From: Marinicella sp.
Lineage (GTDB): Bacteria > Pseudomonadota > Gammaproteobacteria > Xanthomonadales > Marinicellaceae
Assembly (NCBI GenBank): GCA_028284365.1
Contig: JANQRW010000029.1
Location: 1-54,708, forward strand
Length of the DNA stretch: 54,708 nucleotides
Direction: 5' to 3'
Shown here in pieces: positions 24,581 through 44,760 of the stretch. The position numbers were made by a program, and so were the translations under genes. The notes beneath the pieces are model-generated. The model made no database searches. It had not been told where the DNA came from and worked only from the letters and a program-made list of their open reading frames with translations. The first letter of the stretch is position 1, and the number at the start of each line of letters is the position of its first letter.

Positions 24581-25603
24581 GTTGCGGTTTTAAGCCGAGT
24601 TCTTTTGAAGTAAAATTCCGGGGTTGATTGTAAAATACAGGCCATAGTTGCGGTTTTAAGCCGAGTTCTTTTGAAGTAAAATAACACCGTATTTTTTTGC
24701 TAATTCAATGCTGTTGCGGTTTTAAGCCGAGTTCTTTTGAAGTAAAATCTCCATTCAGTTTATTAATAAAGATAAAGCGTTGCGGTTTTAAGCCGAGTTC
24801 TTTTGAAGTAAAATAAATGAACGTTTATTATTAAAGGTATCTAAGTTGCGGTTTTAAGCCGAGTTCTTTTGAAGTAAAATAATTAATACTTGTACTATTA
24901 GTACATCATAGTTGCGGTTTTAAGCCGAGTTCTTTTGAAGTAAAATATTATTTACTTAACTTGGAATATATTATAAGTTGCGGTTTTAAGCCGAGTTCTT
25001 TTGAAGTAAAATTGTTTCAAGTGTCGCCCATGCTGAGAAGTGTTGCGGTTTTAAGCCGAGTTCTTTTGAAGTAAAATACTCATTGATGATGCGAACACAT
25101 GTAAAGGTTGCGGTTTTAAGCCGAGTTCTTTTGAAGTAAAATCTACAACCGCTACAACCGCGACAACCGCTAGTTGCGGTTTTAAGCCGAGTTCTTTTGA
25201 AGTAAAATGACATAACGCATTAAATCAAGCATCCTATAGTTGCGGTTTTAAGCCGAGTTCTTTTGAAGTAAAATTTCGTGCAGTATGGTATGCAACCCCG
25301 TTATGTTGCGGTTTTAAGCCGAGTTCTTTTGAAGTAAAATGGTGGCGGAATTAGACGCTAACTATGGCAGTTGCGGTTTTAAGCCGAGTTCTTTTGAAGT
25401 AAAATCGAACAGGTCATCAAAGGCACCACCAGAAAGTTGCGGTTTTAAGCCGAGTTCTTTTGAAGTAAAATCTTCCCTCTGTATGGGTCTAATCCATAGT
25501 AGTTGCGGTTTTAAGCCGAGTTCTTTTGAAGTAAAATAGCTTCTTTCAACGGAAATGTTCAAACTTTGTTGCGGTTTTAAGCCGAGTTCTTTTGAAGTAA
25601 AAT
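24581..25603 (+). CRISPR. Type II-C CRISPR array, 16 repeats, 15 spacers
   Basis: Sixteen identical 36-base repeats start at 24581 and end at 25603. The repeat begins GTTGCGGTTTTAAGC and ends TTTTGAAGTAAAAT. Spacers are 29 or 30 bases. The plus strand is the crRNA strand, because the tracrRNA anti-repeat at 30322-30355 is complementary to it. The array is therefore transcribed towards cas2, opposite to the cas genes, as in Neisseria type II-C loci. Each repeat ends in TAAAAT, a good -10 element, so each spacer may have its own promoter as known in Neisseria. No repeat at either end is visibly degenerate. The spacer at 25143-25172 is a nine-base tandem repeat. Confidence 0.98.
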
Positions 25604-25686: not shown

Positions 25687-26013
25687 TTAAAACAGCAGTA
25701 ATTGTTCCACTTGATCAGTAAACTTTTCAATTTCATTATTTTTTATGCTAATGATTTGAGCAAATTGTTTATCAGTAAAAAACAAAATACTGACGTTGCC
25801 TGGCGGTGTATTTGATTTGATTTTTCTGACCATTCTATTGGCTTTTTCTCTTACACCAACAAATTTGAAATAAACTGATAACTGTGACATTTCAAAACCA
25901 TTGTCTTTGAGAAAATTTCTGAAGCCATTGGCACGTCGTCGATCTCTATCTGTTATGGTTGGCAGGTCGAACATCACAATCATCCACATCAGTCTATATC
26001 CTGATACTTTCAT
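25687..26013 (-). CDS. cas2: CRISPR-associated endonuclease Cas2 (type II)
   Basis: Cas2 is the dimeric core on which Cas1 assembles to integrate new spacers. The 108-residue product has the family start YRLMWMIVMFDLPT with the metal-binding aspartate, then RRRANGFRNFLKDNGFEMSQ and a VSILFFTDKQF strand, which is typical of type II-C Cas2. It overlaps cas1 by four bases and ends 83 bases from the last repeat. Confidence 0.96.
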   Translation of the reverse strand: MKVSGYRLMWMIVMFDLPTITDRDRRRANGFRNFLKDNGFEMSQLSVYFKFVGVREKANRMVRKIKSNTPPGNVSILFFTDKQFAQIISIKNNEIEKFTDQVEQLLLF

Positions 26014-26912
26014 GTTTTTATTTTTAGCTTTTTATAATTGGCCTTGGGTATTTGTAGCTTGTCTTTTGCTTCCAAATAACTGACTGCAAGTGATTGGGCC
26101 ATCATTTTCATGCTGTTTTGCACGATGGTCCATCGAGTTTTGTGTCGAATCAAAAGCTTCAGTTGAGCAGTTAATAAACTTTTGCTTTGCCGGTTGATTT
26201 CTTCAAAACCATTTTGTAGGCAATGAATAACAGTTAAGTCTGTGATTGGCCTGAATGGCTCAATCAAGTCATCAATCACACAAAAAGCATTACGTTGGTT
26301 GCTGTGATGAATACCCAAAGATGGTAACAAACCAGCAGCTACTACATATCTGGCCAAAGCCGAACGCAGAATGATGTAACCGTAGTTAAGCAGTGCGTTT
26401 GGCTCATCACCAAAACGTGTACGCCTGAATTGATCGCCAAACAGGCTTTGCCAGTAGTGTTTTGCTGCTTGAGCCTCGATGTTGTGTCGGTCTCCTGCTG
26501 TTACTCGCTCCACCAATGGTTCAATTGCCTCAGTGGTTTTACCACAGTATTTCAGGGCGGCAATTTGATGTTTGATTTTGGCTTTTATTATTCTTTGCCA
26601 CAGTTTGTTGTTTAAGCCTTTACTTGCATTAGCCTGTGCACTGGCGATTTTGCTCCCTTGGAAGTGGGAAGATAATGGTGTGACACAGGAAACAGGCATA
26701 AAGCTTTGGTCAGTAATCACTAATGGGATATTGTGTTGTGCCAATCTGACCAACAGGTTCTGTGTAAAAGTGATACCATGGGCCTTGGTGATGATGCTGG
26801 TGAGGTAGTCAAAGGGAATTTGTTTGACAACTTCACCTTTGTTTGAGATTTTAATAAAACCTCTATTACAAGACAAATGACAAGCCAGTTCACTGATCTC
26901 TAAAATACTCAT
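26010..26912 (-). CDS. cas1: CRISPR-associated endonuclease Cas1 (type II-C)
   Basis: Cas1 is the integrase that inserts spacers. The 300-residue product has the type II layout: an N-terminal beta domain with ISNKGEVVKQIPFDYLTSII, then the helical catalytic domain with RVTAGDRHNIEAQAAKHYW (containing the metal-binding glutamate), GDEPNALLNYGYIILRSALARYVV, GLLPSLGIHHSNQRNAFCVIDDLIEPFRP. The conserved E, H and D residues are all present. It begins within the cas9 stop (TGATG) and ends overlapping cas2. Confidence 0.96.
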   Translation of the reverse strand: MSILEISELACHLSCNRGFIKISNKGEVVKQIPFDYLTSIITKAHGITFTQNLLVRLAQHNIPLVITDQSFMPVSCVTPLSSHFQGSKIASAQANASKGLNNKLWQRIIKAKIKHQIAALKYCGKTTEAIEPLVERVTAGDRHNIEAQAAKHYWQSLFGDQFRRTRFGDEPNALLNYGYIILRSALARYVVAAGLLPSLGIHHSNQRNAFCVIDDLIEPFRPITDLTVIHCLQNGFEEINRQSKSLLTAQLKLLIRHKTRWTIVQNSMKMMAQSLAVSYLEAKDKLQIPKANYKKLKIKT

Positions 26913-29900
26913 CAGTGTTTTTTGGCATGGCCGGGGTCATAAATCTTACCAATGGGTGAAACAAACAGTTTTCTGGCATTGTATTTTTGTAATGATGATG
27001 ACGATGTGTTCGTTTGTGTTTTTTGTTTGGTTGTGGCGTCATTATGATGTCTTAAAACAATTTGCCCCTTAGCAGATAACTTTTGAACTCGACAAATTTG
27101 TCTTTCATTATTTTTGTCTATGGCTACCATATCATTAATTTGTAACCTCATCACCTTGTAGGCTGTGGGATTATCCTTGCGCCATTGTGGTAAGAATTCT
27201 TTTTGGTTGGCATAAAATGTTTGGACCACTTCACATTGCCACTTGCCTGCTTTTTTGCCCTTGGTTGGGCACCAGATTTCAACACAGAAATTATTGCCAC
27301 CAATCACATGACGGTAGGCCTTGTTATTTCTGTCTTTGATCGGTATTAAACTGTCTTTTTTAACGTGGACTCTGACTTTTTTAAGTCTTTGGTAAGGATT
27401 GTTGTGACTGTTTTCCTTGTATTGCTCAATGGCGCTCTCGTATTCTTTTTTGGTATCGCCAAAGTTTTCAAATATCCTGCTGATGTCTTCACGAATTCTT
27501 TTGCTGGCGATTTCTTTGATATCTTGTAACTTTTTAAAATTATCAGCAGTTAAATCTTTACGAATGGCGTAAACAGAGCCATCAATCTGACCGTAGTTGG
27601 TGTCCTCATGCAAAGAACCTGTGGTTGCTCCTTTGGCAATGGCTTTTTGTGCGCCTTTGTGATCCAGTTTATGAGAAATAATCATATTCTGTAGTTTGAG
27701 TTTGATTTTTTCAAGGTCAAACCCCTGAAATGGTGGCTCCAAATCAAGCATTAATTTGTGGCTTTCCTGTTTCCGTGCTCGCTGGTTGGCTCTGGCCAGT
27801 TTTCGCATCGCACTGGTATCTGTTAATGCCACAACTATAGCATCTATGGCATGATGATGGTGTTGTGTTCTGTCTTTGGTGAATTTCCCGCCAATCATGT
27901 TATGCGTGAACTGTTCCAGTCCCCAGTGGTGCCGCAGGTCGCTGGTAAACTTACCTTTAATTGCTTTAACCGTATGCGGCCCTGACACAAATTCAGCATA
28001 TTGGTGTGCCAATTTAGACATATAGCGTGTGTCGTTTAATTGCCGTTGAATGTATTGCCCTTCCTTGCTGTCTTTGAACCTTTCTATGGCATCAGGTAAA
28101 AAACGCCAGAATTTACGTTCCATATTTTTGGCTCTGGCAATGATGTCATCCCAGTTGTATTCATCAGGGCTGTGACCGAATGCTTCGTAAGGTGTTTTAT
28201 TGCCTTTAAATCTGTTGGCGCGCTGAAAACACAGCATTTTGTTGTTCCTTGAATCGTCGAATGATCGAGAGAAAGGAATGATGTGTTCGATTTCCACCAG
28301 TGGTGAGAATAAATACTCGTCGTTAATGGTGTCACCAGTGAGCGGACAGCAACGTTGTTCAGGTTGTTTTGCCAAATCCTCCCACAGTTTGTATTTCATG
28401 CGGTTGTTGTAGCTGGGAAAGTGTCCGTGTTCTGTAAGAAAAGCATTGATTCTTTGATTTTCTTTTTGGTTTGCGGCTTGATTTTTTTTTAGCTCACTGA
28501 GCTGTTTAGTGCCCAAAGTGACATTTCTTGCCAGTTCAATATGAATTTGTTTGGGAGGCTCACCATATTTTTTCACCAGTTCGTTAATAATGATTTTGAA
28601 TTGATTCAATGCCATGTGGACGGTGGGGTTATTGATTTTTCCAAAGTACTCTTCAGGCTTGTTTTTGTCCTTAAAAGTTCCGCCAATGACTGCTTTAGGC
28701 AGGGCTTCACCATAGTACGGCAAATTACCAAAAGGAAAGAGTTCACCAGTCCTCTGATCACTGTGATTGATGCCAGCAGCAGTACAGGCATCGCTATAAA
28801 TTATACCTGTTTTCAGGTGCGGCATGATTTTTTGGATTGCTTTCAGAGAAACATGACCAAAGCCTGGGGCTAATCGTGATTTGGTCTGTATCAATTGGTT
28901 AATTTGATCATCAGAAAGGGTTTTGCTTACTTCTGAAAAGAATTTGTTTAGTTTTTGGTTCAATTCAGAGTTGTTTTGCCCCGTAACGATGATATCCACC
29001 AACTTACGAAGATTGGCTAATGATAAATCTGCCCAAATTTCTGACAAAATTGGTTGCAAAAGTGCCGAGGTGGTATCTGCCTTAAGGCCATCTCTGGACT
29101 CTTCCATGTTGAATTTCAAGTTGATACCACTGCCCAATAGTTTTCTGATTTTAGTCCAACTAAGTATTTTATCTTTACGCAACTCACTGAAATTTTTGGT
29201 TAAGTGATTGATAATTTTTTGTTTTTGGTCTTGTGTCATTGATAGGACAGATTGATTTTCTTTGACAAAATCAAGGTGGTTGACTTCTTGAAAGATTCGG
29301 AAATGCTGGACCTCTACATATGCAGAACGTGCGCGTTTTTCACCGTTAATTAAACTGCAAAAACCGGGCTCAGGAAGTTTTAATGGTCGCTGGAAGAAAA
29401 TGATGTCTTTTAGTTTTTGTATAGCATCATTTGTTAAAACACCAGGGTGAAATTTTTTTTGAACAGCCAAAATTTGATCAACTTCCTGCTGATACATCGT
29501 TCTGTTTGTATAAATTTCGTATTCATTGTTGTTAGCTTTCATGCGAGTGGGCTTTCCTGATTGTAAACGAAGATAGAGGAATTGTCCCAATGTCATTTCT
29601 GTGTCTTCAAGCATTTTTTCTAAATCATCGATTCCTTTTTTTAAGCCTTTTTGTTCACTTTTATCTGCTCTTTGATCGGCTACCAGGTTGCTTTTGAATC
29701 CACGTCTTTGGTTAATGTGAAACAGCACTCTGCCAATTTCATATAAACTTATTTGCTTTTTAACAGCTTTATCCCTGAGCTCATAAGGATTGGTTTTGGC
29801 TAGTTCAGAACGTTCTGTTCTGGTTTGTGGTTGAAGCCCTATCAAAATCATGTATTTTAGTAATGTTTTTCGACGCATGATATAACGATCATGGTTTCTG

Positions 29901-30082
29901 CTGGCACCACGCTTTTCTCTGCGATTTACTGAAGTTGGTTTATTTGTCTTTGCTTCTCGACCTGATGGAAAAATTCTGACCCCAAAATCTTCTATTTTGG
30001 TGGGCATCAAGTTTTCGTCAAGAATAATGATGGCCCAGCCAATTGATGTAAATCCCAAATCAAACCCGACTCTATAGTGCAT
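26912..30082 (-). CDS. cas9: Cas9 RNA-guided endonuclease, type II-C
   Basis: Cas9 cuts both strands of DNA matching the crRNA. I start it at ATG 30082 (MHYRVGFDLGFTS), preceded by GGA at eight bases, giving 1056 residues, a compact II-C size. RuvC-I has Asp8 in GFDLG, followed by an arginine-rich bridge helix (VNRREKRGASRNHDRYIMRR, about 50-70). RuvC-II has Glu516 in IELARNV. The HNH domain has EIEH with His600 and FDDSRNNK. RuvC-III has HHHHAIDAIVV with Asp747. The C-terminal third should recognise the PAM. All catalytic residues are intact, so the protein should be active. The upstream TTG at 30097 would add five unconserved residues. The gene is followed directly by cas1 and cas2 with no csn2 or cas4, which defines II-C. 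Confidence 0.98.
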   Translation of the reverse strand: MHYRVGFDLGFTSIGWAIIILDENLMPTKIEDFGVRIFPSGREAKTNKPTSVNRREKRGASRNHDRYIMRRKTLLKYMILIGLQPQTRTERSELAKTNPYELRDKAVKKQISLYEIGRVLFHINQRRGFKSNLVADQRADKSEQKGLKKGIDDLEKMLEDTEMTLGQFLYLRLQSGKPTRMKANNNEYEIYTNRTMYQQEVDQILAVQKKFHPGVLTNDAIQKLKDIIFFQRPLKLPEPGFCSLINGEKRARSAYVEVQHFRIFQEVNHLDFVKENQSVLSMTQDQKQKIINHLTKNFSELRKDKILSWTKIRKLLGSGINLKFNMEESRDGLKADTTSALLQPILSEIWADLSLANLRKLVDIIVTGQNNSELNQKLNKFFSEVSKTLSDDQINQLIQTKSRLAPGFGHVSLKAIQKIMPHLKTGIIYSDACTAAGINHSDQRTGELFPFGNLPYYGEALPKAVIGGTFKDKNKPEEYFGKINNPTVHMALNQFKIIINELVKKYGEPPKQIHIELARNVTLGTKQLSELKKNQAANQKENQRINAFLTEHGHFPSYNNRMKYKLWEDLAKQPEQRCCPLTGDTINDEYLFSPLVEIEHIIPFSRSFDDSRNNKMLCFQRANRFKGNKTPYEAFGHSPDEYNWDDIIARAKNMERKFWRFLPDAIERFKDSKEGQYIQRQLNDTRYMSKLAHQYAEFVSGPHTVKAIKGKFTSDLRHHWGLEQFTHNMIGGKFTKDRTQHHHHAIDAIVVALTDTSAMRKLARANQRARKQESHKLMLDLEPPFQGFDLEKIKLKLQNMIISHKLDHKGAQKAIAKGATTGSLHEDTNYGQIDGSVYAIRKDLTADNFKKLQDIKEIASKRIREDISRIFENFGDTKKEYESAIEQYKENSHNNPYQRLKKVRVHVKKDSLIPIKDRNNKAYRHVIGGNNFCVEIWCPTKGKKAGKWQCEVVQTFYANQKEFLPQWRKDNPTAYKVMRLQINDMVAIDKNNERQICRVQKLSAKGQIVLRHHNDATTKQKTQTNTSSSSLQKYNARKLFVSPIGKIYDPGHAKKH

Positions 30083-30106
30083 TGCTAAATTCCACAATAA
30101 AAGTAT

Positions 30107-30134
30107 ATTTTATATGAAACGTAAAAAATATCAA
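30107..30134 (-). promoter_or_regulatory. Predicted cas9 operon promoter
   Basis: On the minus strand TTGATA (30134-30129) and TAAAAT (30112-30107) are separated by 16 bases, upstream of the cas9 ATG at 30082. The 11-base segment 30121-30111, lying between and touching the -10, is identical to the guide-like bases just before the degenerate repeat at 30245. Binding of Cas9 there would block RNA polymerase. Confidence 0.6.
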
Positions 30135-30148
30135 TAATTTTCTGCCTC

Positions 30149-30177
30149 TTGCGTGTTTTGTGTCTTTCAAATAAAAT
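30149..30177 (+). promoter_or_regulatory. Predicted promoter of a long tracrRNA form
   Basis: TTGCGT (30149-30154) and TAAAAT (30172-30177) are exactly 17 bases apart on the plus strand, so transcription would start near 30184. This would produce an RNA covering the guide-like segment, the degenerate repeat and the tracrRNA. Confidence 0.45.
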
Positions 30178-30178
30178 G

Positions 30179-30206
30179 ATTTGCTATGACTTTGAAATTA
30201 GCAAAT
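30179..30206. repeat. Inverted repeat at the presumed start of the long tracr form
   Basis: ATTTGCTA (30179-30186) and TAGCAAAT (30199-30206) are perfect 8-base inverted arms around a 12-base centre. It overlaps the expected transcription start of the long RNA, so it may be an operator or a 5' RNA hairpin. Confidence 0.5.
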
Positions 30207-30244
30207 AGAGAAGTTTGATTGTGTGTTTCGTCGCGTTTCATATA

Positions 30245-30278
30245 GTTGCGGTTTAAAATAGATTATTTTGAAATAATG
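30245..30278 (+). repeat. Degenerate type II-C CRISPR repeat upstream of tracrRNA
   Basis: The segment begins GTTGCGGTTT exactly as the array repeat and keeps TTTTGAA further on. About 27 of 36 positions match the array repeat with one gap. It is 5.6 kb from the array and in the same orientation, between the cas9 promoter and the tracrRNA. Confidence 0.8.
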
Positions 30279-30286
30279 TTAAATAC

Positions 30287-30315
30287 TTGAATTGCAAAAT
30301 GCTTAGTTATAAAAT
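30287..30315 (+). promoter_or_regulatory. Predicted tracrRNA promoter (short form)
   Basis: TTGAAT (30287-30292) and TAAAAT (30310-30315) are 17 bases apart, placing the start near 30322, at the first base of the anti-repeat. Confidence 0.6.
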
Positions 30316-30321
30316 AATGGC

Positions 30322-30410
30322 AGTACTTCAAAAGAATCGGTTTACTACCGTTAATAAGGACTGATAGTCCACCAAATTAGATAGCACGCTCTGGCGTGCT
30401 ATCTCATTTC
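30322..30410 (+). ncRNA. tracrRNA of the type II-C system
   Basis: The anti-repeat starts AGTACTTCAAAAGAA (30322) and stays complementary to the array repeat, with one bulge and a few mismatches, through TACCG at 30350. After it come a small hairpin GGACT (30358-30362) / AGTCC (30366-30370) and a strong terminal hairpin (30379-30404). This matches the II-C pattern of duplex, short stem and terminator stem. The predicted length is about 89 bases. It lies upstream of and divergent from cas9. Confidence 0.88.
30379..30404 (+). terminator. tracrRNA terminal hairpin
   Basis: AGATAGCACGC (30379-30389) and GCGTGCTATCT (30394-30404) form a perfect 11-base stem with a TCTG loop. The following sequence is T-rich but not a clean T run. 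It likely serves as both structural tail and terminator. Confidence 0.75.
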
Positions 30411-30513: not shown

Positions 30514-30649
30514 ATTGTTTACATAAACCGAATAAACTTCTTCGTCTCCTATAGTTCCTCCACCATGGTTTTTTAGAAACCATAAATATGACTCTGAAAA
30601 TCGAAATCCAATTTTATTTTGAGTCTCTTGGGTAACTTGATCTGACACT
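30514..30649 (-). pseudogene. Fragment of a SMI1/KNR4 immunity gene
   Basis: About 136 bases are nearly identical (around six differences) to 32501-32636, the first half of the intact SMI1/KNR4-family gene at 32255-32731. The fragment lacks both the start and the C-terminal half. It is probably left over from duplication or recombination of toxin-immunity cassettes. Confidence 0.85.
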
Positions 30650-32255: not shown

Positions 32256-32731
32256 TAACTTACCCAAAAACTTTCTATTCTTTTAGCCAAGAATTCATAG
32301 AAATTATTAGCATATAAAACAGGTTCTTCACCGACACTCGCTGTGAAAATAGGACATTCAGCTCCATCAAACTTTGAATTTTCAAAATAAAAAAGCTCAC
32401 CATAATCAGTGAACATTACAACTAATGCAGTGCTAGAAATGTCTCCCTCGTCTTGATTAATGATGTGTTGTTGAGCAATATCATCAGAGGCTGGATGAGG
32501 ATTGTTTACATAAACCGAATAAACTTCTTCGCCTCCTATAGTTCCTCCGCCAAAGTTTTTTAGAAACCATAAATATGACTCTGAAAATCGAAATCCAATT
32601 TTATTTTGAGTCTCTTGGATAACTTGATCTGATACAGCAGATTCTACTGTTCCAAAATCAACTAAATCACTGTGTTTTTGTATCAGCTGAAATACATAGT
32701 CTTTTGTATATTTAGTAATTATTTGTTTCAT
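32255..32731 (-). CDS. SMI1/KNR4-family immunity protein
   Basis: This 158-residue protein shows the SMI1/KNR4 (SUKH) pattern: an N-terminal helix, IQETQNKIGFRFSESYLWFLKNFGGG with the family's tryptophan and F..GG turn, GGEEVYSVY, then VMFTDYGELFYFE. SUKH proteins are the most common immunity proteins of contact-dependent and Rhs toxins. It begins 20 bases inside the end of the Rhs toxin gene, so toxin and immunity are translated together. It should neutralise the LHH nuclease encoded by that gene. Confidence 0.88.
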   Translation of the reverse strand: MKQIITKYTKDYVFQLIQKHSDLVDFGTVESAVSDQVIQETQNKIGFRFSESYLWFLKNFGGGTIGGEEVYSVYVNNPHPASDDIAQQHIINQDEGDISSTALVVMFTDYGELFYFENSKFDGAECPIFTASVGEEPVLYANNFYEFLAKRIESFWVS

Positions 32732-34457
32732 ATGTTTTTGCTCTTTCTATCCAGTATTTTTCTCGCCACTTATTAAATTCTGCTCTGTTGATTCCAGATG
32801 GAATAGTGTTTGGGTTTATGTGAATGACTTTTTTATTTTTACTATGAAACCGTTGAGTTACTTCTGTAATTGATCCTTCATGACGCTGGGTCATGTGATG
32901 TAAGTTAACAGATTTCCCTGTTGGGTCTATAGGTGCTCGTCCAGCAGCCATTCTTTCCAGGTTAGTTCCCTTATGAACAACATTATTTTGTTTCCATGTT
33001 GTCATCATATCAGGATCAAACAAGTCATCCCTAGGAAATACTTTATTACCCTGAAAAACAATGGGTTCTTGTGTCCAATATTGGTAATAGTTTCTTTGGA
33101 CATCAACATCTTCGAAACTTCTGAAGTGAACTTTATTATCTGCACCTTCTGTAATTATGCCAGTAAAACTGTTTTGTGTTGCCATTATCGGCGGTTCAGG
33201 TAAATGGCTCTGAATAAAGTTTTTTCCTTTATTGTAAGTAATCTGCCCACCTTTACCTGCACCTATAGCTGTCAGTAAGCCGGTGGTTGCAAATCGTGCC
33301 CGTTCCTGTATCGGTCCTTCAAAATCACCTCTGGACTCCATTTCAGCAACAACCATCTTGTGGTTGTTGATGGCCGTTTGGACACTTTTAACAGGATGTT
33401 TTACAAATTCATAAGTGGCATCAACCTGTCCCCTTAACCTCAGCATCGAACCCCTGGCATACTTGCCACCTGTCGCTGCTTCAACATAAGTACCACCTAT
33501 GTCTTTGGCTGTCTGGATTGTTCCTGTTACAACATCACCAACAGCTTGGCCAATACCTGCATAGGCTGCTGCTTCGTTCTTGATGTCCTGGGTGTTTTGG
33601 GCAAGAATTTTAGAATCAGTCAATCCTGCTGTATGGCGATCACAGGCATAAGGGTCTATTTGATTGACCACACTTGAACAGCGACCGTCTTTGTCTAGGT
33701 ATTTGGTTGGATTGGCTCTGGCGTATAAATACCTGTGTTGCGTGGGTGGGTCATTTGCCACACCTTCAAGTGGGTCTTCTGAGATAAAAGCCCCAAGTTC
33801 TGAATCATAATAGCGTTGTTGTGCATAATAGAGACCAGTTTCATCATCGGCATAAAAGCCAGTAAAGCCAAACAAGCCGGCATGTGAGCCGTGTGTTCTG
33901 GTGATGTTACCGAAGGCATCATATTCAATGCGAGCGACCACCGAACCATCTTGTGCCGTGACTGCCACAACAGAACCCATGGCATCCAGCATATAATAGT
34001 AATTCTCTCCGTTTCTGGTTTCACCAATGGGTTCACCCTGTGCCCAATGATAACGAACCAGAACATTACTTAACACATTGGTTTCATACAAAAGATGGTT
34101 GCCATCATAATGGTAGCGTGTTTCCTGAATGTTTTTTCCAATGGGGCGGACTTGCTTGCTGATTCTCAATCCTTGAAAATCATACAGATATCTGGCAAGC
34201 CAAATTCCATTACGGCTCACTTCTCTTAAGTCGCCCCTCGCACTCCATTTGTATTCAGTTGTGACTCCGTTTTGAGTCTTGGTCCTTCTGTTGCCGTTTT
34301 CATCGTAAGTAAAAGTAACAGGATTGTTTGGGTCATCATCAGAAACAATTGATATGACTTGATCGCGAAGGTTATAGGTGAATGTTTTGGTGGAAGCCGA
34401 GAACCCACCGAATGAAAATAACAAAAACAAAAATGCTGTAACGAATTTCCTGTTCAT
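32712..34457 (-). CDS. Short Rhs-repeat toxin with C-terminal LHH (HNH-like) nuclease
   Basis: The 581-residue protein starts with a Sec signal (LFLLFSFGGFSAS). Residues about 25-255 are Rhs/YD repeats (for example YDENGNRRTKTQNG and YDAFGNITRTHG), ending in the conserved core junction GLYYAQQRYYDSELGAFISEDPL and YLYARANPTKYLDKDG. Residues after about 260 are the variable toxin part. Near residue 520 is SVNLHHMTQRHEG, the LHH signature of HNH/endonuclease VII toxins. The Rhs part is far shorter than the roughly 1000-residue cage of typical Rhs proteins, so this may be a recombined cassette carrying its own signal. A strong ribosome binding site (AAGGAGG) precedes the ATG. Its immunity gene overlaps its end. 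Confidence 0.88.
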   Translation of the reverse strand: MNRKFVTAFLFLLFSFGGFSASTKTFTYNLRDQVISIVSDDDPNNPVTFTYDENGNRRTKTQNGVTTEYKWSARGDLREVSRNGIWLARYLYDFQGLRISKQVRPIGKNIQETRYHYDGNHLLYETNVLSNVLVRYHWAQGEPIGETRNGENYYYMLDAMGSVVAVTAQDGSVVARIEYDAFGNITRTHGSHAGLFGFTGFYADDETGLYYAQQRYYDSELGAFISEDPLEGVANDPPTQHRYLYARANPTKYLDKDGRCSSVVNQIDPYACDRHTAGLTDSKILAQNTQDIKNEAAAYAGIGQAVGDVVTGTIQTAKDIGGTYVEAATGGKYARGSMLRLRGQVDATYEFVKHPVKSVQTAINNHKMVVAEMESRGDFEGPIQERARFATTGLLTAIGAGKGGQITYNKGKNFIQSHLPEPPIMATQNSFTGIITEGADNKVHFRSFEDVDVQRNYYQYWTQEPIVFQGNKVFPRDDLFDPDMMTTWKQNNVVHKGTNLERMAAGRAPIDPTGKSVNLHHMTQRHEGSITEVTQRFHSKNKKVIHINPNTIPSGINRAEFNKWREKYWIERAKTYETNNY

Positions 34458-35225: not shown

Positions 35226-35366
35226 TATTGATTTGGCTTTGTATCAAAGGGTCATCTACAACAGTACAAATTTGTAAGGCCTTTTAGACGGGCATTTGAT
35301 TGATCTTTTTCAGGGAGAAGGTCATTTTATGCTGCTTGTTCAACAAAGGCTTATAGATGTAAATTA
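35226..35366. other. Intergenic, trailer end of the I-F2 array
   Basis: No gene is visible. A weak 5-base hairpin (CTTTG 35237-35241, CAAAG 35245-35249) follows the controller gene without a T run. Because the array is transcribed leftwards, this is the distal (oldest) flank. Confidence 0.35.
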
Positions 35367-37614
35367 TTTCTAAGCCGCCTTTGCGGCGGTTAACTTGTAG
35401 AAACTTATGCTAATTTCCAGTGGGTTTTTCTAAGCCGCCTTTGCGGCGGTTAACGGGCATGTACCCTGCATCAGGCGCAATGATTATTTCTAAGCCGCCT
35501 TTGCGGCGGTTAACAAATCACAGCTTGAAGCAACAAATTATTTATTTTTCTAAGCCGCCTTTGCGGCGGTTAACCCTTGATTTCACAGATAAACATATCT
35601 TCTTGATTTCTAAGCCGCCTTTGCGGCGGTTAACAGTTACGGAAACGACTCACTCGATGACATTGTTTTCTAAGCCGCCTTTGCGGCGGTTAACGATCAA
35701 ATGTAGGAACCGCAATCAATATGAATTTTCTAAGCCGCCTTTGCGGCGGTTAACTGATAAACTTGTAACCGTCAACTATTTAACAATTTCTAAGCCGCCT
35801 TTGCGGCGGTTAACCTTTAACCAAAACCGCTTCAATCACACCACCTTTTCTAAGCCGCCTTTGCGGCGGTTAACATGTTGCTTGAAGGGTCTCAGTTTTT
35901 GTTGGTTTTCTAAGCCGCCTTTGCGGCGGTTAACACCAAGTTTTAAGTCTTATTGACCAGCTTTATTTTCTAAGCCGCCTTTGCGGCGGTTAACCTATTG
36001 ACATAATTAATGCCGCTGGTGGCGTTTTTCTAAGCCGCCTTTGCGGCGGTTAACTTCACCAACATGGACATTCAATATGAAAAACATTTCTAAGCCGCCT
36101 TTGCGGCGGTTAACCAGTAACTCTGGTAACTGGAACTCTGGTAACATTTCTAAGCCGCCTTTGCGGCGGTTAACTTACTGCTTTGGGGCGCATTCAACCT
36201 GAAGAATTTCTAAGCCGCCTTTGCGGCGGTTAACTTCGCATTTACGAATGGTATGGCTGCAAGAAATTTCTAAGCCGCCTTTGCGGCGGTTAACGTCTAT
36301 AAACGTTTCTTTATCTATCCCTGCAATTTCTAAGCCGCCTTTGCGGCGGTTAACTACAATTTTGATCACGCATGCGACATTTTGGTTTTCTAAGCCGCCT
36401 TTGCGGCGGTTAACCACCAGTTACTTTGTCAACTTCAACAACGTATTTTCTAAGCCGCCTTTGCGGCGGTTAACAACCCTGACCTGGAGACACCAGCCAT
36501 ATTTTTTTTCTAAGCCGCCTTTGCGGCGGTTAACTATGAGTGATGATAGGTATAGATTTAGGGCTTTTTCTAAGCCGCCTTTGCGGCGGTTAACTGGTGT
36601 TTTTCTCAAGACTTGCTGAGATAGCCTTTCTAAGCCGCCTTTGCGGCGGTTAACGTATACCATAAATAGTCCTTGTAAACTAATTATTTCTAAGCCGCCT
36701 TTGCGGCGGTTAACATGCACTGAAGGACTCACTGAATGTGACCCAATTTCTAAGCCGCCTTTGCGGCGGTTAACGGAACAGGTTAACCAAACTAACAAAG
36801 GGTGTTTTTCTAAGCCGCCTTTGCGGCGGTTAACCCATAAAACTGGAAGTGATAAGAAAATAGATTTTTCTAAGCCGCCTTTGCGGCGGTTAACATTATT
36901 CCGTCCCCCAGTATGGCAACATCTGATTTCTAAGCCGCCTTTGCGGCGGTTAACTATTGTCTGTTTTGTATACAGCATCATGATCTTTTCTAAGCCGCCT
37001 TTGCGGCGGTTAACGTCCAAAATATGTTTTGATTCTCTGGTCTTATTTTCTAAGCCGCCTTTGCGGCGGTTAACTTAGGTATAGTCAGTGCCACCGGTCG
37101 TCAAGGTTTCTAAGCCGCCTTTGCGGCGGTTAACACTACATCCCTAAAGGGAAACAGAAACTTAAATTTCTAAGCCGCCTTTGCGGCGGTTAACTTTCAT
37201 CTGAGCGAATTGAAGCTTCACCATTTTTTCTAAGCCGCCTTTGCGGCGGTTAACACTGAAAAATCAAATTCAGAACCGTCAATCCATTTCTAAGCCGCCT
37301 TTGCGGCGGTTAACCCATCGCTCAAGGCAAGATGACACAACAACAATTTCTAAGCCGCCTTTGCGGCGGTTAACGCCTACTTGACCCCAATGCTGTCAGT
37401 CCTGTTTTTCTAAGCCGCCTTTGCGGCGGTTAACTTTCAACGTCATTGCCATAAAGCCATATTTTTTTTCTAAGCCGCCTTTGCGGCGGTTAACAACTAC
37501 AGTAAAACCCATTTGTTAGACTATGATTTCTAAGCCGCCTTTGCGGCGGTTAACCAGTAACTCTGGTGACAGGAACTCTGGTGACATTTCTAAGCCGCCT
37601 TTGCGGCGGTTAAC
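35367..37614 (-). CRISPR. Type I-F2 CRISPR array, 38 repeats, 37 spacers
   Basis: Thirty-eight identical 28-base repeats occur at an exact 60-base period, so all 37 spacers are 32 bases. On the minus (crRNA) strand the repeat starts GTTAACCGCCGC and ends GGCGGCTTAGAAA. It can form a CCGCC/GGCGG hairpin for Cas6f, the I-F pattern. The leader is at the right end, next to cas6f, so spacer 37555-37586 is the newest. That spacer and the one at 36115-36146 differ at only 3 of 32 bases. The perfect repeats and uniform spacers suggest an active locus. The 60-base period makes long but meaningless reading frames across the array. Confidence 0.98.
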
Positions 37615-37754: not shown

Positions 37755-38417
37755 TTACCAGTTCGGTACCGTTGTTTTTGCACTCATGCCGTAAGTGTTA
37801 AAAAGACCTTCATGTGAGCGATCTGTAACACATTGTGCAATTTCCAGTGAAAATTTATTATTGCTACTCAAACTGTCCATGATGATGTATGGAAGTTTTT
37901 TCTGGTGTGGACTTTCATAGCTTGCCATAGCCTTTTCAAAGCTGATGTTGTTCTTTTCAGCATAGTTAGAGACTTGTTTACTCTTTGCTTCCTCAAAAGA
38001 AATGTTTTTCCTTTTGGCGTACCTTCGCGTCAGCCGTTCCATGTTTCTATCTTGCCGATAGCGGTTTACCGTCAAATGGCCTTTGATTTGTTTTGGAATG
38101 ATGCTGACACTTTTGATGTGTACATAATCATTCAGTTGTGACAGCTTCTGTTGTAAGTCCAGATGTTCCAGTTCTGTTTTTTGTTTGGTAAAAACACGTA
38201 ACTTTGATCCCAAAATAGAAAATTTTCTACCATTTTTTTCGAATTGTTGGTATTCAGGGAAACTAACTCCAATGCCTGAAACCTTTGCATCATCGCCATA
38301 AGTCTTTTTGGCCTGTTCGACCAAAGCGAGGTGAACCTGCATGAAGACTTTTGACCACAGTTTAAACAAAGATCCTTTAAATGAATTTATGAGTGTAATT
38401 TCTTGATAATATTCCAT
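37755..38417 (-). CDS. cas6f: Cas6f (Csy4) crRNA-processing endoribonuclease
   Basis: Cas6f cuts the repeat hairpin and stays bound to the crRNA 3' end. I start at ATG 38417 (MEYYQEITLI) after a strong AAGGAGG, giving 220 residues; the longer frame to 38507 is not supported. The catalytic histidine equivalent to Csy4 His29 is His29 here (FMQVHLALVEQ). GIGVSFP and the C-terminal YGMS..TVP block match Csy4, and the arginine-rich RNA-binding helix is RQDRNMERLTRRYAKRK. The protein is about 30 residues longer than Pseudomonas Csy4 partly because residues 133-144 and 152-163 are near-copies of each other. Confidence 0.95.
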   Translation of the reverse strand: MEYYQEITLINSFKGSLFKLWSKVFMQVHLALVEQAKKTYGDDAKVSGIGVSFPEYQQFEKNGRKFSILGSKLRVFTKQKTELEHLDLQQKLSQLNDYVHIKSVSIIPKQIKGHLTVNRYRQDRNMERLTRRYAKRKNISFEEAKSKQVSNYAEKNNISFEKAMASYESPHQKKLPYIIMDSLSSNNKFSLEIAQCVTDRSHEGLFNTYGMSAKTTVPNW

Positions 38418-38430
38418 GATACATACCTCC

Positions 38431-39438
38431 TTATCGAACACTGATTTCAGACACATAAGCCAAACCCTTTTTTCCCAGATAAAAAGAGGATACACCTGCA
38501 TAATCAATCATATTTTTGAGTTCTTTTGCTTTGGCGAAGTCAATGTTTAAGTTGATCACAAGTTGACCGTTGGCCTTAGTAAGAGTATGTTTGATTTTTC
38601 CTTCGCCTTTGACATACTCTTCACGTACATAGGGGTTTCCAAAGATACACTTTTTAGCCCCTGTTGTGTATTTGTCCATAAAGTCTTTAGGAGTGAACCC
38701 ATTGTTTGAGATGCCACTGATACCACCTCTTTTTGATTTAGCTGTGCTCATATCATAGTGAGACTCAAGCCGCTTCATTTGCAAATAAAGTGCTGAGCAA
38801 TACATTGGCAACATCAATTGCTGACCTTTTTTATTTAGTGGTTTATATCTTTCAAAGGATGTTGCTAGCCTGTCAGAAGCTTTTTTGATTAAGCCATTAT
38901 AGTCAACAGGTTTGATTTTCTTGATGGTTTCGAGTCTATTCAGTATAGATATAGGGTCTAGCGGTTTTCTTTTGACTACTTTGGTGTTATTTACAATGAA
39001 ATTACAAAGTTCATTCAGGTCTAAAGACAAAATGTCCCAAAATTCCTGTGAGTAATCAGATTGAAATATTGGATCATTTACTTTGATCATGCCTGTAAAA
39101 GAGTTTTGATCTGTGCTGCCTTTCATATTACGGATGTATGTAATTTCATGATTGAGAGTCTTAGGTTTGTTTTCAAATGAAATGACATGTTCCAAGTCAG
39201 TAAAATAGTAATTATTACTTGCTCTGGCTTGATAAAGTTTGCGCTGATCACCGATCAAACGACTCAATACACCCATTACCGTATTTTTAGAGATATTCCT
39301 TTGCTGGTAACTTTCTTTCTTTCTTAATTCTGTCATGGAAGCGACAAAGTTTCTTCCTTTCTTGGGTAGTTTTTGATCATTACTGCCATCCAAAAAGGAA
39401 TTCTGCCAAGAAGCTTCATAGCTTATGATAATCCTCAT
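38431..39438 (-). CDS. cas5fv: Cas5fv, PAM-side Cascade subunit of type I-F2
   Basis: The 335-residue protein lies between cas7fv and cas6f, the place of Cas5fv in the I-F variant of Shewanella putrefaciens CN-32. The C-terminal part (DYAGVSSFYLGKKGLAYVSE) looks like a RAMP strand-and-loop end. In the known I-Fv complex Cas5fv caps the 5' end of the crRNA and takes over PAM recognition from the missing Cas8f large subunit; the same is expected here since no cas8f is present. A good ribosome binding site (AGGAGA) precedes the ATG. It ends 13 bases upstream of the cas6f start. Confidence 0.85.
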   Translation of the reverse strand: MRIIISYEASWQNSFLDGSNDQKLPKKGRNFVASMTELRKKESYQQRNISKNTVMGVLSRLIGDQRKLYQARASNNYYFTDLEHVISFENKPKTLNHEITYIRNMKGSTDQNSFTGMIKVNDPIFQSDYSQEFWDILSLDLNELCNFIVNNTKVVKRKPLDPISILNRLETIKKIKPVDYNGLIKKASDRLATSFERYKPLNKKGQQLMLPMYCSALYLQMKRLESHYDMSTAKSKRGGISGISNNGFTPKDFMDKYTTGAKKCIFGNPYVREEYVKGEGKIKHTLTKANGQLVINLNIDFAKAKELKNMIDYAGVSSFYLGKKGLAYVSEISVR

Positions 39439-39446
39439 ATGATCTC

Positions 39447-40391
39447 CTATTCTGCTTCAAAATATACGGCATATTTTGTTTGAGGTTGTGGTGAGACTTC
39501 TTCTGGGCTGCGTTTGATGCGCATCATTTTGTTGCTGTCATTATAATCAACTTCAATGCCATCTATGTACATATATCCTTTTGCTTGGCGAATAGATAAT
39601 TCTTGAATCATCTCTAATGCTGTTTCTATTAAAATTGAGATGGCTTCTTGATTTAGTAAAACACCAATTTCACCCTCTTTATAAATTGTTCCCTTGCGAA
39701 CGAAATTCTCATGAAAAGTTGCTTTGGGGGAGCGTTCTGGTTTTAGAGATTGAATAAAATCTTGCACATCTTGAGCAACTTGCTCGCCTTGGTTGTCTTT
39801 AACTACCATTGCGCAACGGTCGAATTTGTTATCCAGAGAAATAAACTGTAATTGCTCGATACTGATAGAGCCATAGGAAATGTATTCAGTATCACCAAAT
39901 GTTGTTTTTGAAAAAAATGAAGAACTATCTCGCTCACCAGCTTGTCCAAATTGTTCAAAATTACCATTGCCCAATTGATCCACAAAGTCTTCAATCAATA
40001 AAGGACTGGTTCGTTTGCATTGACTAGCAGGAACAACGTAGCCACGAATAAGCCCAGTGATTGAGGCCAGCACTTTTGCTAAACTTTTTTCAGCGGCAAA
40101 GTGCAGATCATAGGCTTGTTCTTTGAACAGGTGGTGACGAATACAGTTTTGGCTGATATAAAGAGGTGTTTCTTTGAAATTTATATCAGTTGCTTCTTTT
40201 TTATATTTGTAGCCTGTTTCATCTTTTATCTTTCCTGTTAAATTGGTATAGCCGCGTAGTTTTGGGAGTGTGTGGTTGTCAACTGTCTTCCCCTCGCTAC
40301 TTAATGTGGTTGGACCATTCCAGTTAACGACACCGTGACCATAAGCTTTGATTTTAAAATCGACGCTTTTAATGCCTTCTATTTTTTGCAT
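39447..40391 (-). CDS. cas7fv: Cas7fv, backbone subunit of type I-F2 Cascade
   Basis: The 314-residue product begins [20 protein letters not shown], a start I associate with Cas7fv proteins, and is in the cas7fv position after cas3. In the I-Fv complex several Cas7fv copies wrap the crRNA spacer. The central part has [15 protein letters not shown] and a RAMP-like [15 protein letters not shown] near the end. AGGAGA six bases before the ATG is a good ribosome binding site. It lies 23 bases after cas3 and 8 bases before cas5fv. Confidence 0.88.
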
Positions 40392-40414
40392 TTCTATTCT
40401 CCTGAATTAAAAGT

Positions 40415-43400
40415 TCAGTCTTGGACTGAGGGTTTGATTAATTTGTTAATGCTCATTGCACCTACAGGTTGTTTCTTACTGAGGATGTAATAAATTGCAT
40501 ATCTATGCCGTTCTCTTTCACCTCCAATGGGTTCTAAGTCTTTGGGTGTATAACTTAGATATATGGGATATTCAGGTGAGCGAGCTTCCAAGAGTAGTAA
40601 AAAATCCTTGTAAGGTTTTTTGGCTTCTTCTTTGATGTTGTGGTGTTTGGCTTGCATAAAGGCAAGTAAGTCTTTTGAACTGTCACCATATCCTCTGATT
40701 TTTTCAGTTGATTCGGTGAGTCCGACTATTTCTACTGCATGGTTCGTATCTTCACTATAGGTATATTCATTAATAAACTTAGGGTTTAGATTTTCATCCA
40801 CTTTACAAACAGCCATTTGTACGAATCGGTTATCTCCCCTGAGAGAGTTTTTTGATATCTTTACAACACCATCTTTTCTCTTTGATTTAGGTGATATTGA
40901 TATTGGATCAATTACTTTGTTGTTGATTATTTCTACACTTTTTCGCAAGGCCAACTTAAGGTCTTCTTCGATCATTTGCTGACAACTTTCGTCATTGTAA
41001 AAATCATGATAGACCTGATATAAATCATTCAATTTGATGGTGCCATTATCATCTGCATTTAGATTGCTTTGTAGATAATCTAACCAAGCCACAGTGCCTC
41101 TCCAGGAAAACAAGTGTTTTAAAAATTTTGCAGTTGAGCTGTTTTGTTTTCCAGTGGTGCAACTTTTTGGCATGACTGTGGTGTATATGTTGATGGTATC
41201 ATTCACGCCAAACCGGTCTAAACGTCCTAAACGTTGTAACCAGTTTTCAGCGTTTGTGAGCTCTGTAAACATGCGATCAGAACTGATGTTGAGGGAGGCT
41301 TGCACAATTGGGCCGCTTCTGAGTACATCATATTTACTATTTCCACCTTGCTTAAAGCATTCAAATACTTCATCAAACCATTTTGTCTTATCTGACTTTG
41401 TATATTTCGAGTGAAGCAGTATGTTATTTTCTTGATTTTGATGTATCAAAAAGCCCAACTGTGCGCCTTGGGCAGTGTTGGTGATTACAAAAGTTTTTAC
41501 GCCATCATTGTGATGTTGGGTGATTAAAGGGTTTGTTACTTCTTTTTCATCATAGGTTTGAAACTCAATACGGTATTGGGATTGGTTAAAGCTAGCTATC
41601 CTTATGATGTAGTTTCTATCAATCTTTAGAAATTCAGTCACAAAGTAATTATGTGGAGTAGCGGACACCAAGAGTGTATTTGCATGATGTTTAAGCAACT
41701 TTTTGGCTTCCAACAATTCAGCGAACAGCAAGTTGAAAGCTGGCATTGGAATTAATTCATGAAATTCATCAAAAACCACATGGGATTGCATGAAATCAAA
41801 CATTGCGGTGACTTTGCTGTGAGATATGATATTGTTGATGATTTGGTCTATCGTGGTAATCACAATATCACCATTAAAGTACTCATCTTCTGGCGTATCT
41901 GATGCACCTTCTAAGCTGACACCATCAGTTAATGTTTTTTTGAATTCACTTGTAAATATTTCAATTTTACTGTTTGGTAAATATTCAGTTTGAGTCAGAT
42001 CATGTGCAAGTCCTAAACAGACTTGCACTCGTGGGCATACCCACATGATTTTTTTTGCTTTGGTTTTGGCTGCCCATTCAAGGGTTATTTTGGTTTTTCC
42101 GCAACCAGCTGGGCCCTGAAGCACTCCTATGTTAGCAACGTCATCACATTTGGCATATTCTTTTAACTTGGTAATCTCTGATGCTGCATTTGTTTGGGAC
42201 TGATTGCGTTCACTGTTTGGATGTCTGTTTTCAAAGCCTTGTATGCAGCGTTCTATTTCAGCAATCAAAGAGTTATTTTCAGGCATAACTTCATCAAGAG
42301 CAGACTCCAAAGTCCCTTCCGAAAGGTATGCTGTTAAATCATCAGCAGGCATGGCTGATACAATGCGGTCAGCACTGATGACGGCAGTACGGATGATGTT
42401 ATTAAGAGCATTTACTCTCACATCATTTTTATATTCATCGAGTTCATCTGAAATATCACTGTAGATTTTATATTCCGGCAAATCTTGTTTGTTAAGGTTA
42501 AAACGGGTTGTCCATTTAGGGAAGAGATCTTTAAGGTCACCAGCTTTATCAAACATAGTTGCAATGGCCTCAACATCTTTCAATACAATGTTCAAGTTCT
42601 CAAAAAGTTGATCAACTGTGTCGTTATCCAATGATTTTTTAAGTAGTTTATAGATTCCTTCTGGTTTATTGAAAAAGTTTTGGTTCTCTTTCCGGAAAGG
42701 GCGTGTGTGATGCCAATATATGCCATGGAAAATTTGTTCGAGTTGACTCGAGTTCAATGTTTCTTCATTCTGAAGTAAAACTGCTGATAAAAGCCACGAA
42801 ACTTCATGGTGGCGCGGATGTTTATCAAATGAAAACTTGGTATGACCTCTGACTGAGTTGTCTATATGAAAACCATCATCAGGTAAGGATGCTTCATCTT
42901 TTAACTTGTTAGATAATTTGCCAAGTTTTTTTAGTAACCATTGTTGAAATTGTGAATCAATCTTGCCAATATCATGCAAAATGCCCGAAATAAAAGCGGC
43001 ATGAGCTAATCGAGGATTTTTAATGTCTATTCTCTTTATCAATGAAAAGGCGAGAAACCCAACGGCAAATAAGTGTTCACTGAGAGTTTGTCCTTTAGTA
43101 TTTGCATAAATATGTTTTGTTTCTAATGGTGTTTTATCCATAATAATTTCTTTTGATGTGTGGTTCACAGGCACATATCCCATTTCATTAAATTCATATC
43201 GTTTCCCAACTATCCATAGTAACTCTGAGCGAGAGCGGGATCGAATCCAGTGGCAGCTGACGGCGGTGCTTTTGCTGGCGGTTTTCTTAAGTAATTTGTG
43301 GACGGCCTGTAGGCCTTCTTGGGTGATGACAGTTTGCCAGGTGTTGTCGCCAATACGATTGGCAAAAGCATCGAGTACCCTTCGGGTTTTCTTTAGTGCT

Positions 43401-43435
43401 TTTTTCTCGCATTGGCTGACGAAGGTGACCATCAT
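40415..43435 (-). CDS. cas3: Cas2-Cas3 fusion helicase-nuclease (type I-F)
   Basis: In type I-F, Cas2 is fused to Cas3, giving one protein for adaptation and target destruction. The 1006-residue product has an N-terminal Cas2-like domain (about 1-95; VTFVSQCEKKALKKTRRVLD). Next is an HD nuclease (SEHLFAVGFLAF, then GILHDIGKIDSQFQQW with His-Asp). An SF2 helicase follows, with Walker A GPAGCGKTK, motif II FDEFHEL, motif III VSATPH and motif VI QRLGRLDRFG. All key residues are present. It overlaps cas1 by four bases at its start. Confidence 0.96.
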   Translation of the reverse strand: MMVTFVSQCEKKALKKTRRVLDAFANRIGDNTWQTVITQEGLQAVHKLLKKTASKSTAVSCHWIRSRSRSELLWIVGKRYEFNEMGYVPVNHTSKEIIMDKTPLETKHIYANTKGQTLSEHLFAVGFLAFSLIKRIDIKNPRLAHAAFISGILHDIGKIDSQFQQWLLKKLGKLSNKLKDEASLPDDGFHIDNSVRGHTKFSFDKHPRHHEVSWLLSAVLLQNEETLNSSQLEQIFHGIYWHHTRPFRKENQNFFNKPEGIYKLLKKSLDNDTVDQLFENLNIVLKDVEAIATMFDKAGDLKDLFPKWTTRFNLNKQDLPEYKIYSDISDELDEYKNDVRVNALNNIIRTAVISADRIVSAMPADDLTAYLSEGTLESALDEVMPENNSLIAEIERCIQGFENRHPNSERNQSQTNAASEITKLKEYAKCDDVANIGVLQGPAGCGKTKITLEWAAKTKAKKIMWVCPRVQVCLGLAHDLTQTEYLPNSKIEIFTSEFKKTLTDGVSLEGASDTPEDEYFNGDIVITTIDQIINNIISHSKVTAMFDFMQSHVVFDEFHELIPMPAFNLLFAELLEAKKLLKHHANTLLVSATPHNYFVTEFLKIDRNYIIRIASFNQSQYRIEFQTYDEKEVTNPLITQHHNDGVKTFVITNTAQGAQLGFLIHQNQENNILLHSKYTKSDKTKWFDEVFECFKQGGNSKYDVLRSGPIVQASLNISSDRMFTELTNAENWLQRLGRLDRFGVNDTINIYTTVMPKSCTTGKQNSSTAKFLKHLFSWRGTVAWLDYLQSNLNADDNGTIKLNDLYQVYHDFYNDESCQQMIEEDLKLALRKSVEIINNKVIDPISISPKSKRKDGVVKISKNSLRGDNRFVQMAVCKVDENLNPKFINEYTYSEDTNHAVEIVGLTESTEKIRGYGDSSKDLLAFMQAKHHNIKEEAKKPYKDFLLLLEARSPEYPIYLSYTPKDLEPIGGERERHRYAIYYILSKKQPVGAMSINKLIKPSVQD

Positions 43436-44388: not shown

Positions 44389-44760
44389 CTGCAAAACATA
44401 GTTTAAGTTATTTGTGCGATTTATTGTATTTTTTAAGTGCACAATAGCATTGTGATTTCGCATTATTTGAGAACGATACTTTTTTTGGAAGAAATTTATT
44501 ATTTTATTTTTGACTTCTTTAGAGCTTGTTGGCAACCATTCACAGCCATATGTTGATTATTGTTGAGCTGTAAAATTTCAGTTTGCGAGGGCGACAATTT
44601 AATAAGAGTAGTTAAGGTCTGTGTAACACTTTGATAGGCGCAGTATGCCTTTGCTTTTTTATAGAATGATGGGTTTTAGAATTATTCAGGAAGTTGAAAA
44701 AGCTTGCTCAAATTCTGTTTTTTTGAAACAATAGAGACAGTTTAAAAATTTTATGTCATC
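44389..44760. other. Intergenic between cas1 (I-F2) and rppH
   Basis: This 372-base AT-rich region marks the right edge of the CRISPR island. It should contain the promoter of the leftward cas operon and the rightward rppH promoter, but I see no well-spaced pair for either with confidence. The left 147 bases are an open frame in phase with cas1 without conserved residues. No other gene is seen. Confidence 0.4.

Follow-up and report, generated by a model that had tools for sequence, protein, structure and literature searches.

Introduction

In Streptococcus pyogenes, whose CRISPR-Cas9 system is of type II-A, the tracrRNA exists in a short form and a long form, the latter called tracr-L (Workman et al. 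2021, Cell; PMC11417352, PMC8616872, PMC12216829). The passages on tracr-L in these sources describe a single RNA that unites guide and tracrRNA, carries 11 nt of complementarity beside a PAM at the cas promoter, and directs Cas9 to repress without cutting. According to the corresponding section of a 2021 review, 11 paired bases beside an accepted PAM suffice for repression without cutting, and extended or long tracrRNAs were not found outside subtype II-A (PMC8616872). Further, an 11-nucleotide match is described as giving repression, and a change of the promoter PAM was used to abolish it (PMC11417352). Loss of tracr-L repression in II-A is described as raising immunity and costing fitness when phage is absent (PMC12216829). 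The literature matches listed for tracr-L concerned II-A only, and an earlier mention of II-C is possible in Workman et al. 2021, two related 2024 papers and a 2023 survey of CRISPR-derived regulatory elements. A word search did not find the term tracr-L in the text of a study of over 650 II-C systems (PMC12080349).

Other regulatory guides are described in the relevant parts of further reports. In Francisella novicida, the scaRNA belongs to a small RNA hybrid through which Cas9 binds DNA and represses without a cut, as proposed here, but this scaRNA is an RNA of its own, paired to the tracrRNA, and it represses genes other than cas9 (PMC8616872, PMC13431127). The II-C scaRNA of Neisseria meningitidis shares the single-guide-like fold of the RNA studied here, whereas its reported action is on the efeO mRNA and not on the cas9 promoter (PMC13431127). 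CreR RNAs of types I-B, I-E, and V-A use a guide with partial promoter complementarity for autorepression, which resembles our proposal in CRISPR types other than II-C (PMC13131331).

Here, we analyzed the type II-C locus of a 54,708-base stretch of DNA (hereafter the window). As with tracr-L, long and short tracrRNA forms are predicted for the window, one RNA would comprise both guide and tracrRNA with 11 nt of complementarity at the cas promoter, and repression by Cas9 without cutting is the predicted function. Unlike the S. pyogenes locus, the window system is of type II-C (cas9-cas1-cas2, no csn2) with cas9 divergent from the tracrRNA gene; the II-C sequences are unrelated, and several separate changes are found on the Cas9 tree. 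It is quite likely that the window makes two tracrRNA forms and that the long one is a natural single guide by which Cas9 represses its own promoter without cutting.

Results

Anatomy of the locus

The type II genes of the window, with the tracrRNA gene divergent to cas9, are as follows.

26912..30097, minus strand: cas9, 1061 aa from the TTG at 30097, with the ATG at 30082 being the likelier start; HNH and RuvC parts matched
26010..26912, minus strand: cas1 (type II), Cas1 model match
25687..26013, minus strand: cas2, Cas2 model match
24581..25603, plus strand: CRISPR array of 16 identical 36-base repeats and 15 spacers
30324..30350, plus strand: tracrRNA anti-repeat, read from the sequence
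30379..30404, plus strand: predicted tracrRNA terminator, a hairpin with a T-rich tail after it

The system was assigned to type II-C because the Cas9, Cas1, and Cas2 models matched and the array lies directly after cas2. In keeping with the definition of this subtype, cas9, cas1, and cas2 are its only cas genes, and csn2 and cas4 are absent. Comparison with relatives indicated that the window Cas9 keeps D13, H605, H749, and D752, which we take to be nuclease residues. Their conservation suggests that the nuclease is intact, in which case the short match, and not a dead enzyme, would prevent cutting. An RNA family search at the locus returned no match that reached its gathering score.

The window also contains a second CRISPR system, a variant type I-F (35366-37614 and 37755-44535), whose 28-base repeat TTTCTAAGCCGCCTTTGCGGCGGTTAAC is present in 38 copies and lies beside genes matching Cas6f, Cas5fv, Cas7f/Cas7fv, Cas3fv, and Cas1fv. 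In addition, a 135-base direct repeat occurs at 30514-30648 and 32501-32635 (96% identical, 1987 bases apart), and the translation of an open frame at 32712-34457 resembles, by inspection, an RHS/YD-repeat protein.

A guide-like segment matching the predicted cas9 promoter

Between cas9 and the anti-repeat, we located the following elements.

30234..30244, plus strand: guide segment CGTTTCATATA of 11 bases, immediately upstream of the degenerate repeat, read from the sequence
30245..30280, plus strand: degenerate CRISPR repeat GTTGCGGTTTAAAATAGATTATTTTGAAATAATGTT, for which pairing with the anti-repeat of the same RNA is predicted
30111..30121, minus strand: target site, whose cas9-sense strand has the guide sequence; the guide RNA would pair with the plus strand
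30107..30134, minus strand: best predicted cas9 promoter, -35 TTGATA at 30134-30129, 16-base spacer, -10 TAAAAT at 30112-30107
30103..30110, minus strand: PAM side of the target, AAATATAC, read from the sequence
30149..30177, plus strand: TTGCGT-17-TAAAAT, a weak candidate for the long-form promoter, giving a leader of about 50 nt before the guide
30287..30315, plus strand: candidate promoter of the short tracrRNA, TTGAAT-17-TAAAAT, consensus match

A preliminary description of this DNA had reported that the guide at 30234-30244 equals the minus strand at 30121-30111. The sequence bears this out, with no third copy in the window: CGTTTCATATA occurs there twice, as the guide itself and at 30111-30121 on the minus strand, against 0.01 expected in shuffles. 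The length given for the match, 11 bases ending at the repeat boundary, is also correct, base 30233 being a mismatch. The arrangement is that of a natural single guide, with a guide of about 11 nt directly 5' of a degenerate repeat and matching a predicted cas promoter. The target, which had been placed between the -35 and the -10, does lie in the promoter spacer but is not strictly confined to it, as it also covers the first two bases of the cas9 -10.

One alternative is a chance match beside a copy of the repeat that has no function and is decaying, such as an array repeat that strayed to the tracrRNA gene or was left there from an ancestral state. Compared with the array repeat GTTGCGGTTTTAAGCCGAGTTCTTTTGAAGTAAAAT, the degenerate repeat is identical at 22 of 36 positions without gaps, and its predicted pairing with the anti-repeat is weaker (-18.4 vs -34.7 kcal/mol), which fits such decay and counts against autorepression. 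For the window alone, however, a match of the same length appeared in only 0.00025 of 20,000 shuffles, in which the guide was kept and the 140-base upstream region was shuffled with dinucleotides preserved; the chance of about 1 in 10,000 estimated in the preliminary description is of similar order.

Two promoter-like sites had been proposed to yield RNAs of about 227 and 89 nt. The site for the shorter RNA is a consensus match and can be retained, whereas that for the longer one (30149-30177) is weak: it is absent from the consensus promoter matches and ranks third among the tracr-strand candidates by weighted scores, the weights of which are approximate; this weakness counts against autorepression. 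Two other plus-strand promoter matches upstream of the guide (30082-30109 and 30109-30138) would give longer RNAs. The consensus promoter scan yielded 5 matches in all, compared with 2.0 expected in shuffles.

Relatives of the window Cas9

Searches of the genus (18 genomes) and the family (33 genomes) each returned a single Cas9 match, the window's own genome. No Cas9 above 48% identity was found in the order (12 of 299 genomes with a match), the class (29 of 369), or the phylum (41 of 398), with the window itself included in these counts, nor in the family of the nearest order matches (3 of 39) or in the genome contigs (11 loci). Viral contigs gave 0 matches to the window Cas9; 56 plasmid records matched it, all below 60% identity, with the top one at 33.8%.

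The nearest Cas9s, 44-48% identical, belong to loci L004 and L014 (both from Kangiella MAGs), L015/L064, and L016. No degenerate repeat was seen by eye in L004, L014, L064, or L016, nor by script in the first three. In the nearest relatives, a promoter-like hexamer pair lies directly before the anti-repeat, close to cas9 (by eye). As the nearest relatives lack the degenerate repeat, the comparison for covariation described below covers distant loci, those of family f120.

Recurrence of the arrangement across type II loci

We gathered 88 cas9 loci, namely the window, 11 loci from genome contigs, and 76 stretches from the order, class, phylum, and family searches. Stretches were taken from 9 of 11 other matched genomes in the order, 26 of 28 in the class, 33 of 40 in the phylum, 7 of 11 in f120, and 4 of 6 in another family search; two genomes in each of these two families had already come from the class search, and one further family search gave only a genome already in the set. 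Of the 88, 20 in which no array was found and 3 that had no anti-repeat were left out, and the remaining 65 were analyzed. Repeat-like starts were sought within 320 bases 5' of the anti-repeat, which gave 40 candidates in the 65 loci. The cut for a degenerate repeat, which allowed no more than one mismatch among its first 10 bases, was chosen after inspecting the candidate list.

Eight of the 65 loci carry a degenerate repeat by this cut (the window, L082, L088, L090, L096, L169, L197, and L198). In seven of them, all but L082, a 10-11-base match to the region upstream of cas9 ends exactly at the repeat boundary. By comparison, elsewhere in these eight loci 10 of 1635 positions have matches of at least 10 bases, as do 11 of 3512 in all 65 loci, and the former contrast argues against a chance origin. 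The remaining 32, weaker candidates comprised 8 intergenic ones with matches of at most 7 bases and 24 in or at the edge of cas9, so that these 24 are no real control. L197 and L198 were taken because their family was already positive (L088 and L090); without these two and the window, the boundary match was present in 4 of the 5 loci left, or 3 of 4 lineages. Further, the spacing from cas9 to the anti-repeat is 238-419 bases in the eight loci vs a median of 61 for the other 57, one of which reaches 270 bases.

The exception, L082, counts against autorepression and is the kind of case that a chance origin would lead one to expect, being a repeat copy without a cas9 match. Its repeat upstream of the anti-repeat is near-perfect, is followed by its own terminator, and has no boundary match. 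The element as a whole (11915-11982), with a guide-like segment 5' of the repeat and the terminator just upstream of the anti-repeat, may be a stand-alone small regulatory guide with another target.

Co-changing guides and targets in family f120

In family f120, 11 of 83 genomes matched the query Cas9: seven with a Cas9 at least 68% identical, two with broken pieces only, and two with only a 33%-identical Cas9. The whole region is present in L090, L198, L088, and L197. Of the other three high-identity loci, L101 and L104 were left out of the comparison, their sequence ending before the region. The third, L105 (G729), lacks the cas9 promoter, the guide, and the degenerate repeat altogether, and its anti-repeat adjoins cas9 (by eye). 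Only broken cas9 pieces were found in G702 and G699 (L107, L110, L112, L114, and L116-L121).

The four guides are TCTTATAGTT (L090), CCTAATAGTT (L198), CTTCCTAGTA (L088), and CTCAATAGTT (L197). Each agrees with its own promoter site at 10 of 10 bases, vs 5-8 of 10 for the sites of the other loci, and the tree requires at least seven guide changes, all mirrored in the target. The PAM sides read, in the same order, GAAAATGT, GAAAACAT, TAAAATGT, and GAAAATTA. Bases 11-13 mismatch in all four loci (guide TAC, TAC, TAT, and TAC vs target ATA), as would be expected if pairing stays below the length needed for cutting. In L090, L197, and L198, the target overlaps two -35 bases of the top-scoring cas9 promoter. 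For L088, the best-scoring cas9 promoter lies elsewhere and the promoter overlapping the target ranks fourth, which counts against autorepression.

The preliminary description had suggested looking for covariation of guide and promoter site in related genomes, and such co-change is what these four loci display, at a distance from the window. Its reading of the region as a tracr-L-like single guide gains support from this and from the seven boundary matches in eight loci, as a prediction and not as a function. Since guides and targets of f120 change together, a chance match next to a decaying repeat also becomes harder to sustain, and we regard that account as quite unlikely. The divergent orientation of the predicted RNA might point to antisense control of the cas9 mRNA, but in the window and in f120 the guide has the sequence of the cas9 strand itself and not of its complement; we give this idea practically no credence.

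Other lineages and the Cas9 tree

By their kinship labels, L096 belongs to another family of the same class, and L169 to the same phylum outside the class. Their matches are 10 and 11 bases long (11 and 12 counting the first repeat base) and lie on the other cas9-upstream strand. In L096, the target on this strand is downstream of the top promoter, and in L169, where the target is again on the other strand, the promoter calls are weak; both observations count against autorepression. By inspection, the operons of L090, L096, and L169 consist of cas9, cas1- and cas2-like open frames (judged by size and look), and an array.

These loci also bear on a protein-based alternative, in which the two copies form an inverted repeat bound by a repressor of both cas9 and the long tracrRNA promoter. 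The copies are indeed inverted between divergent genes in the window and f120. In L096 and L169, however, they are direct repeats, and an operator would leave unexplained why, in all seven loci, the match stops where a CRISPR-like repeat begins or at the first base of that repeat. Given also that the sequences are unrelated between lineages, an operator of this kind is very unlikely, and autorepression by a guide remains our preferred reading.

On a Cas9 tree of 65 sequences (a quick search with a branch test only and a root for drawing only), five changes are required for the long form, and strongly supported branches force each of them. L082 is among the five, which leaves four lineages with a cas9 match.

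Predicted fold of the proposed long transcript

The RNA from guide to terminator is predicted to fold with the degenerate repeat on the anti-repeat (-43.4 kcal/mol, z -4.1; 0 of 200 shuffles as stable), the outcome expected of the pairing that the preliminary description had proposed to check by folding. The corresponding RNAs of L090 and L096 fold like that of the window (z -6.0 and z -6.3). In S. pyogenes tracr-L, too, a repeat-like segment is folded on the anti-repeat. By this prediction, the degenerate repeat lies 5' of the anti-repeat on the tracrRNA strand within one RNA, as in a natural single guide.

Alternatively, the guide-repeat part might be a small RNA of its own, paired to the short tracrRNA in the manner of the Francisella scaRNA, or might also regulate other genes. 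The F. novicida system is of type II-B. The terminator between repeat and anti-repeat in L082 would suit a separate RNA, as would a predicted hairpin followed by nine T in the same interval of L090, which the terminator scan did not report. In the window, by contrast, no terminator was found between 30280 and 30324, and the two halves fold together; the arrangement seen there is not that of a separate guide RNA with its own terminator that pairs in trans. Overall, a separate RNA has a small probability in our judgment, and a natural single guide is the reading we retain. The hairpin and nine T of L090 (6697-6728) imply that part of the long RNA may stop early in that locus.

PAM side and spacer matches

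The PAM side AAATATAC fits N4RYAC, the PAM of Campylobacter jejuni Cas9. Searches with the window spacers gave nothing usable among phages (11 records, best E 0.3) or plasmids (3 records, E 4). Among the 299 genomes of the order, they returned, beside the window itself, two weak matches and none usable, one from a low-complexity spacer and one in a feoB-like open frame (judged from its translation). Exact cores of 5 of the 15 spacers were each found in 0 viral contigs. The arrays of L090 and L088 had no phage match, those of L064 and L014 had only weak ones (E 0.8 and 0.07), and the L004 array had no plasmid match.

Searching the L004 array against phages yielded 61 records at E up to 1. Among the matches listed (30), the spacer at 12149-12179 of this Kangiella MAG, whose Cas9 is 48% identical to that of the window, has a perfect 30-base protospacer in Yuavirus phages, with the PAM side GGAAGCGC in two phage records. 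A PAM derived from GGAAGCGC and AAATATAC was rejected, as their common part is only N4-R-Y-R-C, too little to claim a PAM.

Discussion

We propose that the short tracrRNA, starting at about 30322, would serve the array crRNAs in immunity, and that a longer RNA through 30234-30280 would join the 11-base guide, the degenerate repeat, and the anti-repeat in one molecule. This long RNA would fold as a natural single guide and load Cas9. The loaded enzyme would sit on the cas9 promoter (30111-30121), where 11 paired bases would not permit a cut, and by blocking RNA polymerase it would limit its own expression. The block would be lifted when Cas9 is scarce or occupied. For the window, we infer that the long RNA is transcribed, that a PAM is present, that Cas9 binds and does not cut, that it represses, and that this serves as feedback. 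To our knowledge, type I CreR involves no tracrRNA fusion.

Autorepression is suggested by the sequence anatomy of the locus, by the predicted fold, by a target that sits at the best predicted promoter, and by other loci in which this geometry recurs with different sequences that change together. The guide-target design is probably a self-made dimmer switch for Cas9, since the same design recurs with different matching sequences in several unrelated bacteria. The comparisons are best read as several origins of a tracr-L-like autorepression of Cas9 within type II-C. More specifically, we consider it likely that autorepression of Cas9 by a natural single guide is a convergent II-C trait with at least four origins in one phylum, each by way of a degenerate repeat that was placed, together with a guide of 10-11 bases, next to the tracrRNA gene, and that guide and promoter co-evolve under selection for a match that binds and is too short to cut.

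Such natural II-C single guides would be ready as templates, and the locus would supply PAM-side sequence for Cas9s without a spacer-derived PAM. Paired changes of guide and promoter would make autorepression testable by sequence swaps alone. If type II-C systems did acquire this switch on several occasions, a general need of type II immunity would be that Cas9 is restrained by its own guide.
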